Part shown: in pieces, positions 39,287 through 49,663 of the stretch
Position numbering within the stretch: position 1 is the stretch's first letter
Layout: each line of letters begins with the position of its first letter
Source: Acholeplasmataceae bacterium
GTDB lineage: Bacteria > Bacillota_I > Bacilli_A > Acholeplasmatales > Acholeplasmataceae
NCBI GenBank assembly: GCA_007692425.1
Contig: RECG01000013.1
Location: 1-64,000, forward strand
DNA length: 64,000 nt
Direction of reading: 5' to 3'
Translations under genes and position numbers: made by a program
Notes under the pieces: generated by a model
Database searches by the model: none
Told to the model about the DNA's origin: nothing
The model's input: the letters and a program-made list of their open reading frames with translations, nothing else

Positions 39287-39315
39287 ATCAAAAAAGGGTG
39301 AATAATCACCCTTTT
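39287..39315 (-). terminator. Terminator of the malEFG operon overlapping the malG stop
   Basis: AAAAGGGTGA-TTAT-TCACCCTTTTTT on the minus strand; the TGA stop of malG is inside the left arm. Confidence 0.8.
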
Positions 39316-40472
39316 GTCGCACCAGCCATGATGCCTTCAATCAAATACCGCTGGAAAAGCATGTAAAGGATGGTGATGGGCACACCGACCAGGATTGCGC
39401 CGGCGGCGAAAGCCGAGTAATGCAAATAGTTCATATCGTTGATGAGTCGGAAGAGACCGACAGCCAAGGTCCATTGCTTGGTAACATCATAACCGACGGG
39501 TGCATCAGGTGGATAATAGTTCAACAAATAGCCAGGCAACATATAATCCATCCAGGGTCCCATGAACATGGAGACGGCGACAAATGTCAAGATGGGGACG
39601 GACAAAGGCAGGATGATACGCCAGAAAATTTGGAACTTGTTCGCACCATCGATCATGGCGGATTCGTCAAGATCTTTGGGGATTTGTGATAAAAAGCCTT
39701 TGATCAGCCATAAGTTGCCAGGGATGGAGCCACCGATATAGAGAATGCTCAACGCCCTGGGTTGACCGAGCAGGCCGAACTTCCAGAACAGCACGTACAT
39801 GGCGATCAATCCCATGAAAGAGGGAAAGGCCTGGAGCACGAGGATGGTCAGGAGTCCGGCGCGCTTGCCTTTGAAGCTGAAACGGGCAAACACGTAAGCA
39901 GCGCCGGTGATCAGCACGGTGCCGACCAACATATTGATGAGTGCGATGCTGAGTGTGTTCCAATACCACAAGCCAAAGCCGGTTTCTTCAAACAGGTAGT
40001 TGAAGGCCTGCAGGTTGGGTCTCTCAGGCCAGATCTGGTTGGGAATGGCACTTTGGATGTTGGAAAAAGCCAGACCGAAAATATAGACAATCGGGACGAT
40101 GACAATGGTGGCAATCAAGATGATCTCACCATAAATCAGGAGACGTCCGATGAACATGCGCGGTTTGAAGACAGCCACGATACCCATGCGGGACACGTTG
40201 CGCAACTTGGGTTTCATCATGTAATTGAAATAACCCAGAATGAGCAGGCTGAGTCCCAGTATGGCTGCCACCACGATGTGGAAGAACGACAGTTCCCAGA
40301 TGATCGTGATAATGATGGCATACAGGACACCGATAATCGGGGCAAGCCCGATCAAACCTGGCTCGATGCCTTCATAGCCTTTTTTACCGGCGTAATCAAC
40401 CAATGTGCTTTGATTGACGAAAACGACCAACAGGACGATGAAAATGATGAAAAGCGTCAAGAATAATGGCAT
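39306..40472 (-). CDS. malG: Maltodextrin ABC transporter permease MalG
   Basis: 388 aa, about 100 longer than E. coli MalG because of extra N-terminal membrane segments (about 1-90). The core has six segments. The ATPase-docking EAA loop reads ESAMIDGANKFQIFWRIILPL (about 290). It pairs with MalF. The ATG at 40472 has GGAGGACTGAGACC and lies four bases after malF. The ATPase (MalK/MsmX type) is not in the window. Confidence 0.9.
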   Translation of the reverse strand: MPLFLTLFIIFIVLLVVFVNQSTLVDYAGKKGYEGIEPGLIGLAPIIGVLYAIIITIIWELSFFHIVVAAILGLSLLILGYFNYMMKPKLRNVSRMGIVAVFKPRMFIGRLLIYGEIILIATIVIVPIVYIFGLAFSNIQSAIPNQIWPERPNLQAFNYLFEETGFGLWYWNTLSIALINMLVGTVLITGAAYVFARFSFKGKRAGLLTILVLQAFPSFMGLIAMYVLFWKFGLLGQPRALSILYIGGSIPGNLWLIKGFLSQIPKDLDESAMIDGANKFQIFWRIILPLSVPILTFVAVSMFMGPWMDYMLPGYLLNYYPPDAPVGYDVTKQWTLAVGLFRLINDMNYLHYSAFAAGAILVGVPITILYMLFQRYLIEGIMAGATKG

Positions 40473-40476
40473 GGTC

Positions 40477-42822
40477 TCAGTCCTCCTGGAAAGCTCTTGT
40501 CTTCGACAGGTTCCATGCGGTGATTGAACCAACGAACAAGAAAATCAAGACGGAGAACACCGACGCCATGTTGAAGATCGATTCCTCGACCGTCAACTTG
40601 TACATCCAGGAAATCAGGATATCGGTATCACCGGCGAAACCTCTGGCATAGTGGCCCGCGTTAGGCCCCCCGCCCGTAATAAAGTAAATGACCCCGAAGT
40701 TGTTGAAATTCCCGGAGAAGGTCATGATTAAAATCGGTGCTGTCGAATAAAGGACGAGCGGCATCGTGATACTCCAGATTTTTTGCCACTTACTGGCACC
40801 ATCAATATCCGCCGCTTCATAAAGGGTTTTGTCGATGGCGGTCATGACACCGGTCATGAGTGCCATGAAGTAGGGGAAACCAAGCCAGATGTTGACCACG
40901 ATCAACGTGGTTCTGACAAAGGTCGGATTAAACGGATTGGTAAACCACTGGATGTTGTCATGACCCAGATAGAGCATCCGTGCCCATCCGGTCAGTTCGC
41001 TGATTGGCTGCCCTAACACGCCCCAGTTCATCAAAATGTCATAGACACCCAAGTCACGCAGGAATGAGTTGATAAAGCCAAACTCATTGAACATGACCGA
41101 GAATACCATCTGTGAAAGCAAGGCTGGCATCGCCCATGGCAAAATCAAGACGGTCCGCCACAGTTTGCGGAACACGACGCGCTCGCTGTTGAGAATGAGG
41201 GCTTGGAAGAACCCACCGAAAAAGACCGTGAAGGTCGAAAAGATCGCCCAGATGATGGTCCATCCTAGAACGCGCCAGAAGGCACGTCCGAACGATGCAC
41301 CAAGGCCTGTCTCGAAATTAAACAAGGCGATGAAGTTGCGTAAACCGACCCAGTTAAAGGTATCCATCATCGACTCATTACCGGAAATGTTGGTAAATGA
41401 GATGACGAAACCGAAGGTGATCGGCATGATAGAGATGAAGGCGAGCACGAACAAGGCAGGTGAAAGAATGATGTATTCAAAACTGTTTTCGTAGACCGTT
41501 TTAAAGTAATCGACATCCTTCAAGACAATGCCTTTCTGGCGTTTCAGTTCTGCGACCTTGTAGGCATCGCTGATTGACCAATACATGAAAATAAAGAAGA
41601 AAAACGACATGATGACACCGATCAGGCCCTCAAGTAACAGAATGGTTGAAATATGGCCTTGCAAAGGCACGGATTCAGAAACATTGAAACCGCCGATCGA
41701 GTACATGCTGAACTGACCACCCAATGTGCCAGCCAAGGCGTGCTCCACAGCCATATGCCCGGTGAAGTTGACCTTTTGTGCGACACCAAGGGTGACCACT
41801 GACCAATAACTCCTAAGGAAGAAACCGGCCTGGTCATAAAAGAAATTGTTATAATTCGTCAGGAAACTTTCTTTGATATCGGGATTCAGTTCGAAATAGA
41901 CCTTCAACATCAACCGTGTATAGTCACGGTTGCCATAACGGTTCCATGGTTGTGAATACGTGTAAAACATGGATTGTCTGAACTGTCGGGTAAATGGTGT
42001 CTCCTGATACTGGAGACGGATGGAGTTGTAGATCAATCCGGGTTGAAAATACTCGTAAATCATGCCATCGGCACGATATAAGGGGCCGATGACATCAACA
42101 CGGATCGGCGAGGAAAGACTGACAATTTCTTCTGTCAACAGATTGACATAACGGTTGAGGCCGGCATCGACGACAAGTAGGTAGTTGATGCCTTGTGAGC
42201 GAAAAATTTGATTTGATTTGACAAAAGTTGTCATACCATCGATCGAGGTGCGGATATTGTCTTCATTCAACACCCCTGTCAACATGGTGGTTTCGACATA
42301 TTCTTTTTTAATGCTTCCGTCTGCCCTTGTCACATTTCTTTCCAAGTAGAAAAGCCCTTCATCGTCTCGATAAAGGGTTCCTCTGCGAATCAGATGCGCC
42401 ATCTCAAGATGTTCAAGGTCTTCAGGTAGAAATGTTTGCGGAACAACGGTTAACGTGGTATACGAAATCGGATTGTTGTCTTTCAGATCCTGGGCCAGGA
42501 AAGCCAAAAAAGCCTCTTCGGTCACGGCCTCATAGTCACCGATTGAATCAACAAAATCTTCAAAGGGCTGATAGGGCTCGTTATTGAACAGGTAATCAGG
42601 AATGAAGGCGAGTTGATACCAACTGTCACCAAAGTCATTGCCAGGCAGTTTGTCATACGCATGCGTCTCTTCAAAATAACTGCTGGTGACCAGCTCCGTA
42701 CCAACGAAACCGACAAAAACAATAAAAAAGAACAGGGCTTTAAGAAATTGCTTGTTAAGCAGTTGTCCCAATCCCCAGATGAATGCTGAAGCGATGGCTT
42801 TAAGATAACTGAGTGCTTTCAT
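40477..42822 (-). CDS. malF: Maltodextrin ABC transporter permease MalF with very large extracytoplasmic insert
   Basis: 781 aa, against about 430-515 for usual MalF. The first membrane segment (about 28-46) is followed by about 355 residues predicted outside the membrane (about 47-400), then segments from about 403 on. The EAA loop is EAADIDGASKWQKIWSITMPL (about 665). The ATG at 42822 follows TTGGAGGCATC. It lies between malE and malG in one operon. The insert might be a docking or capture domain for MalE or glucan; this is inference. Confidence 0.87.
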   Translation of the reverse strand: MKALSYLKAIASAFIWGLGQLLNKQFLKALFFFIVFVGFVGTELVTSSYFEETHAYDKLPGNDFGDSWYQLAFIPDYLFNNEPYQPFEDFVDSIGDYEAVTEEAFLAFLAQDLKDNNPISYTTLTVVPQTFLPEDLEHLEMAHLIRRGTLYRDDEGLFYLERNVTRADGSIKKEYVETTMLTGVLNEDNIRTSIDGMTTFVKSNQIFRSQGINYLLVVDAGLNRYVNLLTEEIVSLSSPIRVDVIGPLYRADGMIYEYFQPGLIYNSIRLQYQETPFTRQFRQSMFYTYSQPWNRYGNRDYTRLMLKVYFELNPDIKESFLTNYNNFFYDQAGFFLRSYWSVVTLGVAQKVNFTGHMAVEHALAGTLGGQFSMYSIGGFNVSESVPLQGHISTILLLEGLIGVIMSFFFFIFMYWSISDAYKVAELKRQKGIVLKDVDYFKTVYENSFEYIILSPALFVLAFISIMPITFGFVISFTNISGNESMMDTFNWVGLRNFIALFNFETGLGASFGRAFWRVLGWTIIWAIFSTFTVFFGGFFQALILNSERVVFRKLWRTVLILPWAMPALLSQMVFSVMFNEFGFINSFLRDLGVYDILMNWGVLGQPISELTGWARMLYLGHDNIQWFTNPFNPTFVRTTLIVVNIWLGFPYFMALMTGVMTAIDKTLYEAADIDGASKWQKIWSITMPLVLYSTAPILIMTFSGNFNNFGVIYFITGGGPNAGHYARGFAGDTDILISWMYKLTVEESIFNMASVFSVLIFLFVGSITAWNLSKTRAFQED

Positions 42823-42913: not shown

Positions 42914-44278
42914 TCAGCCTGCAAGTCCTACACGAGCACGATAAGAGTTTTCAGCGGTCACCACGGCGACAGCTGGATCGATCTGGTTGTTCCAAACATC
43001 AACAATCATGGTTTCGCCAGGTCCCCAGTAATAGGTGACTTGGGGAATGGTCGGCATCGGAACCGAAGTTTCCAATTGGACCGCCATTTGCATCAAGAGT
43101 TGATCTTCGTTGACACCAGCGATGTTGTCAAGCAGGTCAGCATGGAGTGCTGGCAACTTGCCTTGATACTCATACATCAATTCCATGGCGATGTCTGAAT
43201 TCAAGAACTCGACAAACTTGATGGCATCTTCTGTATTCTTGGAGTACTTGTAGACTGCGGCCATCATCGCACCGGCAAAGGTACGGGTTGGCGTATCGAC
43301 GCCGTCAACATTGATGGATGGCATGGGTGCCACTTGATAGTTGACACCGGCATTACGATAGGCCTGATGGTTCCAAGGTCCACCGATGATGTAAGGAATT
43401 CGTCCGGCTTCAAAGTTTGCACCGGCACCGACAGAGTTGTGTGCGCCTGTGCCTGTGACACGCGGCTTAAGTTGTGTGACCATCCAAGTCAATGCGTCTT
43501 CAGCATTTTCAAAACCAACAGCACTTGGATCATTGAGTTCGGGACCGAACGGGAAGAAGCCAAACGCTGAGTAAAACGGTTGCATGAAGTAGCTGTCAGC
43601 CCAATGGCTTGATGTGCCGAGATAGTAAAGTGATCTTTGGGCATTGGTCAACGGCTGTCCGTCTTCAATGGTTGCATTCCAAACGTCGGCAGCGGCCAGC
43701 AAGTCTTCGAAAGTGGTTGCTGGTGTGTCAATCAGGTCGGTATTGTAGAACAAACCGATGGATTCAATCGACATCGGTACCGCATACAGTCTTTCGACTG
43801 CATTCGGACTGTTGGGGTCGAAGGAACGATTGACTTCGTCATAGTAGACGCTGGCAATGCTCAAGCCCAGTTCATGAGCGCGTGGTGCCAAAAGATTGGC
43901 TGTCGCGGTCGGAAGGGGCAAGATGAGGTCTTCAAGAATGGCCTGAGCCAAATGGTCATGCGGGAACTGGAAGACATCGGCACCGTTACCTGAAGGACCA
44001 AAGGTCTTCAAGAGTTCACGGGCATCGACACTTCCCATGTGTTGATGCTCAACCACGATGTTGGGATAGACTTTATTGAACTCGGCAATAACGGCTTGCA
44101 TGTATTCACCTCGTTCATCGTCAATCCAAACTCTGATTCTGCTTCTTTGTACAAAAGTTTCGCTAAAGTCGATACGCTCACCGAGGTTTTGCGGATCATC
44201 TGCCGGGTCGCCACCTGCACATGCAAACAGTGTCAGGGCACCAAACAGAACAACAACAGTTAATAGTAATTTTTTCAT
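42914..44278 (-). CDS. malE: Maltodextrin-binding lipoprotein MalE
   Basis: 454 aa. Lipoprotein signal MKKLLLTVVVLFGALTLFAC with Cys20. A family 1 solute-binding fold follows (RIRVWIDDERGEYMQAVIAEFNKVYPNIVVEHQHMG; PYIIGGPWNHQAY). It binds sugar outside the membrane for MalFG. Maltodextrin is inferred from the operon context and fold. It sits 15 bases after the secreted CBM41-like gene and ends before a stabilising hairpin. Confidence 0.9.
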   Translation of the reverse strand: MKKLLLTVVVLFGALTLFACAGGDPADDPQNLGERIDFSETFVQRSRIRVWIDDERGEYMQAVIAEFNKVYPNIVVEHQHMGSVDARELLKTFGPSGNGADVFQFPHDHLAQAILEDLILPLPTATANLLAPRAHELGLSIASVYYDEVNRSFDPNSPNAVERLYAVPMSIESIGLFYNTDLIDTPATTFEDLLAAADVWNATIEDGQPLTNAQRSLYYLGTSSHWADSYFMQPFYSAFGFFPFGPELNDPSAVGFENAEDALTWMVTQLKPRVTGTGAHNSVGAGANFEAGRIPYIIGGPWNHQAYRNAGVNYQVAPMPSINVDGVDTPTRTFAGAMMAAVYKYSKNTEDAIKFVEFLNSDIAMELMYEYQGKLPALHADLLDNIAGVNEDQLLMQMAVQLETSVPMPTIPQVTYYWGPGETMIVDVWNNQIDPAVAVVTAENSYRARVGLAG

Positions 44279-44293: not shown

Positions 44294-45745
44294 TCAGTTT
44301 CTCACGACTCTGAAGATAAATGTTTCTTCGGTCACATTGCCCCATCTATCTTCAACGCGTAGCATAATGGTGTAATCACCCTCTGTTCTCGTGTCGAGAA
44401 CGGAATATTCGCCTGTTGGTACAAATACAAATGGTGTCAGGTCGCCGTCGCGGTTGTCATCAACGCGGAAACGTGGGAACAGGTTTTGGTTGAATGGTTG
44501 TCCCCAAGGTACTTCGATGATGCGTTCTGCGGCTGGTCTGCCGACAATACCGGTGGGCGAGATGAATGTCAGGACTGGTGCGGCTCTATCAAGATCCAAG
44601 GTGATGGAAGCTTCCAGATTGTTTTCTTCCAGGCCAAGATCGAAGAACACGGCATAATCCTTGGTGTTGTCAAGCTCGCTGCCATCGGCCAAAATGATGA
44701 CAAATGCGTTCAACGTGGTGTTGGTGGTCGCAAAGTCGACGCGTTCGATGACCAATGGTGCACCATAGACGCCTTCAGCAAGAATTTCACGAATTTCAAA
44801 CCATCCTTCGATGGTTGCACGTGCTTCAACCTTGTCTTCAGCATCCGGATAAGGTGATGCGACCGGAACACCAGTTGCCACGATCACGGTGTTCGGATCG
44901 ACGGCATAGGTACCTGACATGTTGTCAAGGTTGAAAGGAAGCAGGTTGAATGAGAAAGCGGCATCCGCGAACAAGGCAGGATCGGTGTAAACGTTGTTGT
45001 TATGTTCAACACCGTCACCGGCATTGACGACATATACAATGTCAACCTTTCCATCCTGATGATCGGTGAAGAAGCCGGAATCGGGCTTAAGGTCACCAGT
45101 CTTCTTGGTATCATTATCACCAGCATAAATCAGGAAGCCTGCCCAATCTTCTTCAGCATGAAGCATGAAGCCCAGCACAGGAACGCCACCCGGTGATTTA
45201 CCAGCAGTAGTAAAAACATCCGAAGGTTGACCCCATTCAGAGCCATATCCTACCCAGCCCCATCCATGTATGCCCAATTCTTCTTCATAAGAACCTGCTG
45301 GGTCAAAATAGATGACCAGTGCATTGAACATGTCTGGATCCGCAACGAAATATTGTGGATCATCAGTCTTTGTCTGAGCACCTTCAAATACATAAACATG
45401 AACGGTCTTCCCGGCGATGATGACATCATCAGAAAGTTCGACGTTTTCTGTCATCTTCATGTCCCAATTAGGACCGTCCCCTTCCCAGTAAACGCCAATG
45501 AAGCCGATACTGGTGCCAACTGGTACATCGTTATATTCAAAGTATGCACCAAAATCATCTGTGCCATCTGCCCTTTTACCAAAGACATTTTCATGTCCCC
45601 AGGCCCATGACCCAAGATCATCATATTCTCCATCCCATAGTTGGAAATGGATGACCACATTACCGGTTTCATTTGCAAATGAATGAATGCCAAAGCTAAT
45701 CAAAGCAAATGCCACCAACATCATGGCCACTAATACTTTTTTCAT
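44294..45745 (-). CDS. Secreted non-catalytic CBM41-like starch-binding protein
   Basis: 483 aa. A cleavable signal peptide (about 1-24, ending HSFA) without a lipobox. A CBM41/pullulanase-associated domain follows (about 25-125; NVVIHFQLWDGEYDDLGSWAWG). A second similar unit (about 135-260; NALVIYFDPAGSY..GWGWVGYGSEWG) is next, then a beta-rich linker domain (about 275-395) and an Ig-like DUF5011-type end (about 395-483). No GH13 domain, LPxTG or C-terminal membrane segment is seen. It is first gene of the operon with malEFG, divergent from the CBM41 pullulanase. A glucan-capturing role is inferred. Confidence 0.75.
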   Translation of the reverse strand: MKKVLVAMMLVAFALISFGIHSFANETGNVVIHFQLWDGEYDDLGSWAWGHENVFGKRADGTDDFGAYFEYNDVPVGTSIGFIGVYWEGDGPNWDMKMTENVELSDDVIIAGKTVHVYVFEGAQTKTDDPQYFVADPDMFNALVIYFDPAGSYEEELGIHGWGWVGYGSEWGQPSDVFTTAGKSPGGVPVLGFMLHAEEDWAGFLIYAGDNDTKKTGDLKPDSGFFTDHQDGKVDIVYVVNAGDGVEHNNNVYTDPALFADAAFSFNLLPFNLDNMSGTYAVDPNTVIVATGVPVASPYPDAEDKVEARATIEGWFEIREILAEGVYGAPLVIERVDFATTNTTLNAFVIILADGSELDNTKDYAVFFDLGLEENNLEASITLDLDRAAPVLTFISPTGIVGRPAAERIIEVPWGQPFNQNLFPRFRVDDNRDGDLTPFVFVPTGEYSVLDTRTEGDYTIMLRVEDRWGNVTEETFIFRVVRN

Positions 45746-45798
45746 TGTATTCCTCCTTTTTTGATTGTGAAAAGAATGCTGCCATTCTTAGCAGTATC

Positions 45799-45836
45799 AT
45801 CTTATCACATAAATGTGAAGAATGTAAACGCTTTAG
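45799..45836 (-). promoter_or_regulatory. Promoter and cre-like site of the CBM41-malEFG operon
   Basis: -35 TTTACA (45823-45828), 18 spacer, extended -10 TG-A-TAAGAT (45799-45804). The -35 is part of CTAAAGCGTTTACA (45836-45823), which matches cre except at its first two bases, so a LacI-family protein would block polymerase here. Confidence 0.6.
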
Positions 45837-45850
45837 CACTTTGGTGAATG

Positions 45851-45864
45851 TGCAACCGTTTCCC
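45851..45864. promoter_or_regulatory. Second LacI-type operator candidate in the malE/pullulanase gap
   Basis: TGCAACCGTTTCCC agrees with the cre consensus except for its last base and one W position. It lies 28 bases from the neighbouring cre-like site (start to start), between the two divergent promoters. Confidence 0.45.
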
Positions 45865-45908
45865 TTTTGAAATCGCTATCATTTCAGGGGAAAAGGACGT
45901 GTCTTTCA

Positions 45909-45917
45909 TGATAAGAT
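45909..45917 (+). promoter_or_regulatory. Extended -10 promoter of the surface pullulanase
   Basis: TG-A-TAAGAT at 45909-45917, the same -10 as the divergent operon. The inverted repeat TGAAAT-N7-ATTTCA (45868-45886) lies just upstream. Confidence 0.5.
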
Positions 45918-45940
45918 TGATAGCGAGGAGGTAATGATAC

Positions 45941-48808
45941 ATGAAAAAACTAATCGTTGCATGTTTAATGCTGTTTTCCATGATTGGATTCGGCATGACC
46001 GTGCAGGCTCAGACCCTGCCGGATACATTGATTGTGCATTATTATCGGTATGATGGAAACTACACGGGTTTCAATATGTGGATTTGGGAACATGAACCGA
46101 CCGCCAGGGGTGGCATCCAGCATAATTTTGATGTCGCCAATGTCGGTGATCAAGGCGTATTTTATGCAGTCGACCTATCGACAGACTATCCGACAGCCAC
46201 GAAGGTTGGCATCATCATCAAGCAAGGTGGATGGGATGGTTATCGTGAAATCGGTGGCGACCGTTTCATCGACTTGAATGAAATCGAAGTCATCGGTGGT
46301 GTCGCGAACGCCTATTTTGTCGAGCAGGACATCCGGATCGGCTTGTCGCAAGCTGATTTGGACAATGGCATCCCGGATTATAGCAACCGAATCCTGACCG
46401 TTTTCTTCGATACGCAGAAGCGAATTCGTCCCAATTTGACGGCCATGCCTGTCGATGAGGATGTAAACTACTGGGTTTATGAGAACGGTATCGAGATCCA
46501 GTCCGGCCAAGTCACCGGTCTGACACCGGCCATCACCGTGACCGATGGTGTCGACATCAGCAAGACCTATGAACTGGAAATTGAATTTGAAGACGGTCTT
46601 GACCGCAAGACAGTCTCCATGCAAAACTTGTATGACACGGCCGAATTTGAAGCGCTCTATACCTATACAGGCACGCTTGGTGTCAGTTTCGAAGAGGATG
46701 AGACTGTGTTCCGTTTGTGGGCGCCTTTGAGCGAAAAGGTTGAACTCAACCTTTACCATCAAGGCCATCCCACATATGATGAGAACGGTGTGGCAAGCGC
46801 TGATCATTCGCCCTATTTGATCGAGGATATGTACCGGATTGAAAACGGCGCTTGGGAAGCCAGGTTGACCGGTGATCACACCTTCAAGTACTACACATTC
46901 TCCGTCACCAACAACAGCATCACCTACGAGGTCACCGATCCTTATGCCTATTCGACCGGCGCCAATGGTCTGCGTGCCATGATTGTTGATTTCAGCACGC
47001 TCAATCCTGATGGTTGGACCTACGGGACACGGCCGGACACGATTGAACGGCTGACGGATTATATCGTCTATGAATTGCATGTGCGCGACCTGACGTCCCA
47101 CAGTTCATGGAACGGCACCGAAAGTTATCGTGGCAAGTTCCTCGGTCTGACCGAACGGGGCACGACCTTTACCGGATCCAACGGTGTCACGGTGACCACC
47201 GGTCTTGATCATTTGATCGAACTCGGTGTCAATGCCGTCCAGTTGTTGCCTATCTTCGATTTCGGCTTTGTCGATGAGGTCGAAGTGGCCTTGAATCCGA
47301 GTTACCTGAACGTTTTCAACTGGGGCTACATGCCTTACCATTTCAACACGCTTGAAGGCTCTTATGCGACCAATCCTTTTGACGGACGGGTGCGCATCGA
47401 GGAGTTTAAAGAGGTGGTCATGGCCTTCCATGAAAACGACATCCGCATCATCATGGACGTCGTCTATAACCATACTGGTCCCTCGGCAGATTCCAACTTC
47501 CACCGGATCGTCCCCGGCTATTATCACCGCATGACAGCGACCGGTGGCTTCTCCAATGGTTCAGGTACCGGCAATGAAACCGCATCGGAACGTTCGATGA
47601 TGCGCAAGTTCATGCTTGATTCGATCGAGTTTTGGGCGACCGAATACAATTTATCCGGTTTCCGCTTCGACCTGATGGAACTTCATGATGTCGACACCAT
47701 GAACCAGATTCAAGCCTTGTTGGAAGACATCGATCCCACCATCATCGTCTATGGCGAACCGTGGATGGGTGGGACGAGTCCGTTGGCGATGGACATCCGG
47801 GCCGGCAAGGACAATCTTTACAAGATGAACAATGTCGGTGCCTTCAACGACGTCACCCGCGATGCCGTCAAAGGTTCGGTCTTCACAGCCAGCGAACGTG
47901 GCTGGGTCCAAGGCATCACGAATGACCCCGGACGTCTCAGCCATACATATCAAGGGATTCGTTACGGTGTCGTCGGCGGCATCAACTATCCTGGCAACAC
48001 GACGAATGCCTGGCATCTCAATCCGAACCAGACCATCAACTACGTGACCGCGCATGACAACCACACCTTGAATGACAAATTGCGCATCACGGGTATCACC
48101 AATGTCAACACCCGCAAGGCGATGCAGATTCAATCGAACGCCATTGTCCTGACCTCGCAGGGCATTCCTTTCCTGCATGCCGGTGTCGACTTCATGCGTT
48201 CGAAACCCAATCCGGTCGGACGGACAGTGAAACCAGACGAGCATCTTGTCCAAGGTTTCATCGGCAACTCGTATGAATCGCCTGATGCCGTCAACCAACT
48301 CCGTTGGGACCAAAAAGCCTTGCATCATGATGTCTTTGAATATTACAAAGCCTTGATTGCCATCAGAAAGGCTTACACCCATTTCCGGATGGATTCGGCT
48401 GATGATATTTTGGCAAGACTGACCTTCCTTGACACGGATGCCGGACATCAAGCGGTTGCTTACCGGATTACTGGTCTTGAAGGTGAACCCGAAATCATCG
48501 TGGTCCATAGTGGTTCACCAAGCAGCGGTTTGACATTTGTCGCACTTGAGGCAGGCAAGGAATACATGGTCCTGACCAATTCCATTGAAGCCAACCCCGA
48601 GGGTATCGAAGTCATCAGTGACATGTTGTTCGTCCCTGCCAACACCACGATGATCCTGGTCGAGGTGGTTGAAGCACCGGTCATACCTGATGACCCGCAA
48701 CCCACCTCAAACACCGGCTTGATCATCGCCATTGGTGCTTCTGTCCTGGTGGTCGGTGGGGGTGGCGTAGCCGCCTTCGTGTTGATTCGAAGAAGAAAAC
48801 TGGTTTAA
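45941..48808 (+). CDS. Membrane-anchored extracellular pullulanase with CBM41
   Basis: 955 aa. Signal peptide (about 1-25, VQA-QT). CBM41 (about 28-130; LIVHYYRYDGNYTGFNMWIWE). A beta-sandwich linker (about 145-230), a CBM48-like region (about 240-340), and a GH13_14 barrel with FNWGYMPYHF, GFRFDLMEL (nucleophile), VYGEPWMGG (acid/base) and TAHDNHTL (His-Asp). The C-terminus has a membrane helix (about 918-948) then RRRKLV. It should debranch starch or glycogen at the cell surface. The tail TSNTG-helix-RRRK looks like a sortase signal that lacks the LPx part. AGGAGG precedes the ATG. Confidence 0.93.
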   Translation: MKKLIVACLMLFSMIGFGMTVQAQTLPDTLIVHYYRYDGNYTGFNMWIWEHEPTARGGIQHNFDVANVGDQGVFYAVDLSTDYPTATKVGIIIKQGGWDGYREIGGDRFIDLNEIEVIGGVANAYFVEQDIRIGLSQADLDNGIPDYSNRILTVFFDTQKRIRPNLTAMPVDEDVNYWVYENGIEIQSGQVTGLTPAITVTDGVDISKTYELEIEFEDGLDRKTVSMQNLYDTAEFEALYTYTGTLGVSFEEDETVFRLWAPLSEKVELNLYHQGHPTYDENGVASADHSPYLIEDMYRIENGAWEARLTGDHTFKYYTFSVTNNSITYEVTDPYAYSTGANGLRAMIVDFSTLNPDGWTYGTRPDTIERLTDYIVYELHVRDLTSHSSWNGTESYRGKFLGLTERGTTFTGSNGVTVTTGLDHLIELGVNAVQLLPIFDFGFVDEVEVALNPSYLNVFNWGYMPYHFNTLEGSYATNPFDGRVRIEEFKEVVMAFHENDIRIIMDVVYNHTGPSADSNFHRIVPGYYHRMTATGGFSNGSGTGNETASERSMMRKFMLDSIEFWATEYNLSGFRFDLMELHDVDTMNQIQALLEDIDPTIIVYGEPWMGGTSPLAMDIRAGKDNLYKMNNVGAFNDVTRDAVKGSVFTASERGWVQGITNDPGRLSHTYQGIRYGVVGGINYPGNTTNAWHLNPNQTINYVTAHDNHTLNDKLRITGITNVNTRKAMQIQSNAIVLTSQGIPFLHAGVDFMRSKPNPVGRTVKPDEHLVQGFIGNSYESPDAVNQLRWDQKALHHDVFEYYKALIAIRKAYTHFRMDSADDILARLTFLDTDAGHQAVAYRITGLEGEPEIIVVHSGSPSSGLTFVALEAGKEYMVLTNSIEANPEGIEVISDMLFVPANTTMILVEVVEAPVIPDDPQPTSNTGLIIAIGASVLVVGGGGVAAFVLIRRRKLV

Positions 48809-48853: not shown

Positions 48854-49663
48854 TCATGCGTATGTTTTTCTGCCGTAGATCAACATCACCAACATCGTGA
48901 TGAGGCCCATGCCAAGCTGGAAGATGACTGGTGCGAAGGCAGGGCTGAAGAAACCGATGAAGAAACTGGCGACAGCCGGCAAGGTCATGATGAAGATCAC
49001 AAGCTTGATTGACTGGGTGAAGGTCATGAACGTGGAATAACCGAACCTGAACAGTTGCATCACAATCGCCAGCAACAAGACAAACAAGGTATTGGTCAGC
49101 AGACTGACAATCGTGTTGACCAGGACGGTATAAATGACGATATAGGGGCCGAAGGTGGCTTCGATGCCCTCCCCCAAGGCGATAAAGGCATCAGCCCTGT
49201 CCTGCCCTGTCATGAAGTTGATCGAGGTGAAATCGACCACGTCATCAAAACCGGTATAGCCGACGCCGAACATCGTCGCGTCATGGCCATTGGTGTAGAT
49301 GATGATGTCTTCTTTCAACAAGACCTGGTGTTGGCTGGCATCGACGTCATCTTCCTGGTAATTGAAGATATAGGTCAAGCCACGATGGGTATAGACAAAT
49401 GCCTCATCGGTGTCACACACCAGTTTGGAAGCCCTGATCTGGCAACTGTCGGGCAAGACCCAGTCAGGCGTCTCCACCCTGAAACTTTCCGTGATGAAAT
49501 CAAGCCGCCAGCCTTGTTCGCGTACGATCAGGTAATTCAACGGAAAAGCGCTGATCATCACCAGGATGAAGAAGTAAATCAACACCTTGCCGAAAGCTTC
49601 GTCAAGCCGTGTGAAGAGCTTGGCATATTCGAATGAATAGCGGAAATACCGGACCAGAAACAT
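48854..49663 (-). CDS. DUF1189 family membrane protein in the amylase operon
   Basis: 269 aa. One membrane segment near 28-48, an extracytoplasmic domain (about 50-175), and three or four membrane segments (about 175-262). This is the plan of MalA/YvdJ proteins, which accompany maltodextrin genes in Firmicutes but have no settled function. Its start abuts the amylase stop. It shares topology with the protein at 15723-16496. Confidence 0.72.
   Translation of the reverse strand: MFLVRYFRYSFEYAKLFTRLDEAFGKVLIYFFILVMISAFPLNYLIVREQGWRLDFITESFRVETPDWVLPDSCQIRASKLVCDTDEAFVYTHRGLTYIFNYQEDDVDASQHQVLLKEDIIIYTNGHDATMFGVGYTGFDDVVDFTSINFMTGQDRADAFIALGEGIEATFGPYIVIYTVLVNTIVSLLTNTLFVLLLAIVMQLFRFGYSTFMTFTQSIKLVIFIMTLPAVASFFIGFFSPAFAPVIFQLGMGLITMLVMLIYGRKTYA

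Follow-up and report, generated by a model that had tools for sequence, protein, structure and literature searches.

A non-catalytic CBM41 protein at the head of the malEFG operon of an Acholeplasmataceae bacterium, probably a protein for alpha-glucan capture

Why should the operon of a maltodextrin-type importer begin with the gene of a secreted protein that has starch-binding domains, no enzyme and no evident means of staying on the cell? The question is raised by a gene on contig RECG01000013.1 of an Acholeplasmataceae bacterium, of which we analysed positions 1 to 64,000 (the window). A preliminary description, made from the sequence alone, had seen a signal peptide, two CBM41-like domains, a beta-rich domain and an Ig-like (immunoglobulin-like) end, and this make-up is borne out by the open reading frame call, Pfam, profile comparison, and AlphaFold with Foldseek. 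We think that the protein, here called the binder (CBP), is probably a non-catalytic alpha-glucan-capture protein, an analogue of surface glycan-binding proteins that would be co-regulated with the neighbouring pullulanase and importer and retained through its last domain, D4. The gene and its parts are the following.

44294-45745, minus strand: binder (CBP) gene, first gene of the malEFG operon, an intact open reading frame of 483 amino acids with an ATG start
45674-45745, minus strand: type I signal peptide, residues 1-24, without a lipobox cysteine (from the sequence; the host genome has signal peptidase I)
45371-45664, minus strand: D1, a CBM41 domain, residues 28-125 (PF03714; 2j71 and 2j72 in Foldseek; site table)
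44951-45328, minus strand: D2, a divergent CBM41-like domain, residues 140-265 (hhalign against D1; tandem CBM41 matches in Foldseek)
44630-44950, minus strand: D3, a beta-rich domain, residues 266-372, with no assigned family (AlphaFold model)
44300-44593, minus strand: D4, an Ig-like C-terminal domain, residues 385-482 (PF16403 in homologues)

The first of these domains is a genuine CBM41, and the second is a divergent relative of it. The Pfam model PUD/CBM41 (PF03714) recognises residues 30-124 with 35.5 bits (E 1.9e-8, cut-off 25 bits) and matches 30 of the 31 homologues at E 0.1 or better. D2 is missed by Pfam, but a profile-profile comparison with D1 (hhalign) gives E about 7e-7. An AlphaFold model built from 24 homologues is confident (mean predicted local distance difference test score, pLDDT, 86), and its best matches in the PDB are the tandem CBM41 pairs 2j43 and 2j44, over about 260 columns, followed by a CBM26 pair, the Klebsiella pullulanase and the Thermotoga CBM41 (2j72_B and 2j71, TM-score 0.61 on target length); the fold search that the preliminary description had proposed as a check thus returned CBM41 first. 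In D1, the residues W49, W94 and K97 are invariant in all 31 aligned rows, and position 47, W in the binder of the window, is mostly W or H. By alignment to 2j71 the three invariant residues form the putative ligand site. D2 keeps W162 in 30 of 31 rows and K214 in every one, and its position 211, the equivalent of W94, is W in two rows and D or N in nearly all others.

The number of starch-binding modules is the variable part of the family, modules having been gained by insertion as well as by duplication of D1-D2, and this supports a role in binding. An X25/CBM20-like insert lies between D3 and D4 in 18 of the 31 aligned homologues and is absent from the binder of the window; the proteins that carry it are 600-634 residues long, and the motifs conserved in it are W, EYKW, W and NR. 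Pfam gives it weak scores only (X25 in 13 of the 18, CBM20 in 4, AMPK1-CBM in 2), and a search of the PDB by sequence gave only a weak match to a chitin-binding protein. Homologues from two other families, about 800 residues long, have two D1-D2 pairs each. We found no support for D3 as a further CBM41, nor for D3 and D4 as a duplicate pair.

No catalytic domain accompanies these modules, as first described: a GH13 barrel is matched by Pfam or NCBIfam neither in the binder of the window nor among the families that its homologues match, and NCBIfam holds no model that matches the binder at all. The neighbouring pullulanase begins with a similar signal peptide and a CBM41 (matches of about 26-37% identity), so the gene might be taken for a pullulanase N-terminus that was broken or shed and has no function of its own. 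That reading is hardly credible and we reject it, for the pullulanase has no such unit as D2-D4, free-standing forms are conserved throughout the class in both place and sequence, and a tree of CBM41 domains divides cleanly into binders and pullulanases (support 100/97, from a short alignment and with the root not set). The homologues, which the preliminary description wished to see checked for fusion, are free-standing proteins of about 430-840 residues, and no full-length homologue fused to GH13 was seen among them; pullulanases match the binder profile mainly across its first 125-155 positions. Plasmid records gave no homologue of the binder at all. Its statement that CBM41 is normally part of pullulanases holds for CBM41 generally, but this non-catalytic family is widespread in the class.

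The binder gene is followed by malE, malF and malG and then by genes for glycogen phosphorylase and a GH13 enzyme, while a pullulanase gene is read in the opposite direction from a shared intergenic region.

42914-44278, minus strand: malE, a lipoprotein solute-binding protein of maltodextrin type, 15 nt downstream of the binder from stop to ATG, as had been described (Pfam/NCBIfam)
40477-42822, minus strand: malF, long form, 781 amino acids, in which a large additional domain is modelled at about residues 50-390 (Pfam/NCBIfam; model)
39306-40532, minus strand: malG, permease (Pfam/NCBIfam)
45941-48808, plus strand: pulA, a type I pullulanase, read divergently, that has a CBM41 of its own and a transmembrane anchor at the C-terminus (PF03714, CBM48, TIGR02104)
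45746-45940, no strand: shared divergent promoter region of 195 nt, containing a -10-like element and three palindromes that resemble LacI-type operators

A homologue of the binder is present in 29 of 61 relatives, a count that leaves out one genome with a pullulanase match only. Within the order, malE comes directly after it in 33 of 34 distinct loci (L006 and L057 being counted as one), mostly with a gap of 8-14 nt, and the sole exception has an IS1595-type transposase inserted after the binder; beyond the order, the same arrangement is found in 17 of the 20 loci fetched from the class. The preliminary description had asked whether homologues always precede malE, and this check, apart from the few exceptions, came out in its favour. 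The palindromes lie at about 45823-45836, 45850-45863 and 45868-45881 and the -10-like element at 45799-45807, and the third palindrome overlaps the presumed -35 element of the binder operon. This operator-like triplet recurs at nearly constant spacing in most pulA/binder intergenic regions of the order, and its conservation indicates that the binder heads the operon and is probably regulated together with the pullulanase. The same evidence bears on the thought that the CBM41 pair serves attachment to glucan-bearing surfaces, in an adhesin or a sensor, and not nutrition. Ig-like modules are frequent in adhesins, but the nearly invariant place in front of malEFG and the promoter region shared with pulA make such a role very improbable.

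The three exceptions in the class are orphans of one family that are not beside malE (L116:9283-10593, L117:8475-10130 and L118:75-1364). They encode proteins of 429-551 residues with a C-terminal anchor, and the one in L117 is near two pullulanases.

How the protein is kept at the cell is the more difficult part of the question. The protein starts with a type I signal sequence, whose cleavage site is predicted by eye at MKKVLVAMMLVAFALISFGIHSFA^N. Inspection of the sequence agrees with the earlier statement that there is no lipobox, LPxTG motif or membrane helix, and neither a lipid, a sortase-type motif nor a hidden hydrophobic helix at the C-terminus was found that could anchor the binder of the window. 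A penicillin-binding transpeptidase is missing from the host genome, as in a wall-less organism, and a gene for signal peptidase I is present, so that a wall-less cell would export the mature binder without an evident anchor. An uncleaved signal sequence could in principle serve as an N-terminal membrane anchor, given a hydrophobic helix of about 20 residues and the lack of an anchor at the other end. We regard this as improbable, considering the A-X-A-like cleavage sites (SFA^N in the binder of the window, A^AGTG in many homologues) and the signal peptidase I gene, the presence of which also disposes of the idea that the enzyme is missing and the signal peptide left in place for that reason.

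Unlike the lineage of the window, other members of the non-catalytic family carry a membrane anchor. All 22 homologues from outside the Acholeplasmataceae-type clade have a C-terminal transmembrane segment and a basic tail (called by hydropathy score, in L108 by eye), whereas the 34 rows of that clade without exception end right after the Ig-like domain. With no lipobox, LPxTG motif or C-terminal transmembrane segment in any member of the clade, a signal peptidase to free the protein and no wall to trap it, the binder may be a released, soluble protein that acts in the medium and opens or solubilises starch and glycogen for the pullulanase. We find this rather unlikely, since a diffusible product would be a poor investment for a free-living cell without a wall, and since the relatives anchor their homologues, the gene is tied to an importer and the C-terminal domain is strongly conserved.

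That domain, D4, is recognised by PF16403 only below threshold in the binder of the window itself (E 0.02), but the model matches 28 of 31 homologues (best E 3e-11), which upholds the Ig-like end of the preliminary description. It is the most conserved domain of the anchor-less clade, with a mean pairwise identity of 66% against 48-52% for the others, and this suggests that it has a protein partner. The binder is probably held on the surface through it. In the anchored families the contrast is weaker or absent: D4 is slightly the most conserved domain in f19 also (0.66 against 0.62 and 0.49), and it is not so in f24 (0.68 against 0.69-0.70).

The fold, the site residues, the lack of a catalytic domain, the operon place, the promoter, the export signal and the pattern of anchors were all computed, and from there we infer glucan binding, hand-over and docking. 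The CBM41 pair would capture chains of starch and glycogen and long maltodextrins beside the wall-less cell, the co-regulated and membrane-anchored pullulanase would debranch and cut the captured glucan, and the lipoprotein MalE would, together with MalFG, take up what results. For most of the class, the binder would be held by the transmembrane helix at its C-terminus; where that helix is gone, as in the Acholeplasmataceae-type clade, a protein-protein contact of D4 could retain it, the likeliest partners being MalE or the extra domain of MalF. A more daring and quite tentative thought is that the anchor-less binder is built into the importer, with D4 docking on one of these two, as a SusCDEF-like capture-and-import complex on a single membrane. 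To our knowledge no such glucan complex has been described for sugar importers of the ATP-binding cassette (ABC) type.

Some points weigh against capture by a retained binder. The third tryptophan of the CBM41 site is lost from D2 in the Acholeplasmataceae-type clade and W47 is replaced by histidine in about half of the D1 domains, a binder without an anchor may simply diffuse away, and the conservation of D4 is, given f19, only suggestive of docking. The co-occurrence of the binder with the long MalF, which is complete in the order (all 29 genomes with the long type carry the binder, and the two sets are the same 29 genomes), counts in favour of our reading, but it could also come simply from the inheritance of a single orthologous operon.

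The long MalF exceeds the usual length by about 300 residues, and the addition is modelled as a well-folded mixed alpha/beta domain before the permease core. It was not recognised as a known fold, all Foldseek matches at E 0.001 or better being maltose/trehalose-type permeases. In four genomes of the order, pulA is divergent from a malEFG operon with a short MalF (480-487 residues) and there is no binder; in one of them, G019, MalF is split and the genes look broken. The clusters of all four encode, further along, a lipoprotein of 187-191 residues with a TGQFNGW-like start (L119:5622-6197, L120:6056-6628, L121:12673-13245 and L067:3524-4087). It has no credible Pfam match, and in the binder loci it was not found, the matches there being weak and probably due to the signal peptide. 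The binder with a long MalF and the lipoprotein with a short one may be two solutions to one task, the lipoprotein being a replacement binder, but the linkage would be explained just as simply if each operon type descends from one ancestor.

Other genes of these clusters deserve mention. A DUF1189 membrane protein (48854-49663, minus strand), adjoining a GH13 lipoprotein, goes with the cluster in the majority of loci from the class, and a small open reading frame for a probable lipoprotein (123-130 residues) is directly downstream of pulA in L042:5921-6292 and L048:5883-6275. The MalG reading frames L063:5814-8663 and L064:10249-13095 have 948-949 residues, apparently with a large extra part.

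CBM41 itself is already known, and so are non-catalytic starch binders such as SusE/F and Sas20. With the tandem CBM41 of SpuA/PulA (2j43, 2j44) and the Thermotoga PulA (2j71-2j73) the binder shares the fold, the order of two modules and W49/W94/K97 of D1, but in comparison with the streptococcal and Thermotoga pullulanases it has no GH13 barrel and no LPxTG motif, has lost the third tryptophan of D2, and has D3 and the Ig-like D4 in addition. MalE is encoded in the same operon and probably deals with the same class of sugar, but it is a separate lipoprotein gene, and the binder does not have the fold of a solute-binding protein. Sas20 and Doc22 of the Ruminococcus bromii amylosome (PMC9112005) are likewise secreted starch binders from outside Bacteroidetes, with several modules and no catalysis; they attach by dockerin to a cohesin scaffold, whereas the binder of the window has no dockerin match and uses other CBM families. 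Our searches of the open-access literature (subscription papers being outside the scope) returned no title or abstract on a class-wide, CBM41-based family bound to importer operons, or on the loss of its anchor.

Proteins that hold glycans without catalysis and belong with an importer are the hallmark of the Sus systems of Bacteroidetes, and a class-wide CBM41 family fixed in front of malEFG would mean that mostly wall-less bacteria of Gram-positive lineage have a solution of independent origin. Anchored relatives, anchor-less members and binder-less operons with a short MalF offer a natural comparison for what retains the binder and whether the importer is fed by it. The preliminary description had likened the protein in role to SusE/F, and the likeness gains weight from the X25/CBM20-like insert, given that X25 modules make up SusE and SusF (PMC9112005) and that about half the family-level homologues of the binder have an X25-like module; it does not extend to the lipid anchor or the outer membrane. 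Like SusE and SusF of Bacteroides, the binder is a non-catalytic protein of starch modules encoded with an importer, and the proposed role is the same. It differs in not being a lipoprotein, in belonging to a lineage without an outer membrane, in having CBM41 and not X25 as its main module and in accompanying an ABC importer and not SusCD, with no sequence match seen between them; the comparison is one of role only. Judged by its constant operon place throughout the class, the binder probably corresponds, on the Gram-positive side, to the proteins that hold starch on the surface of gut Bacteroides.
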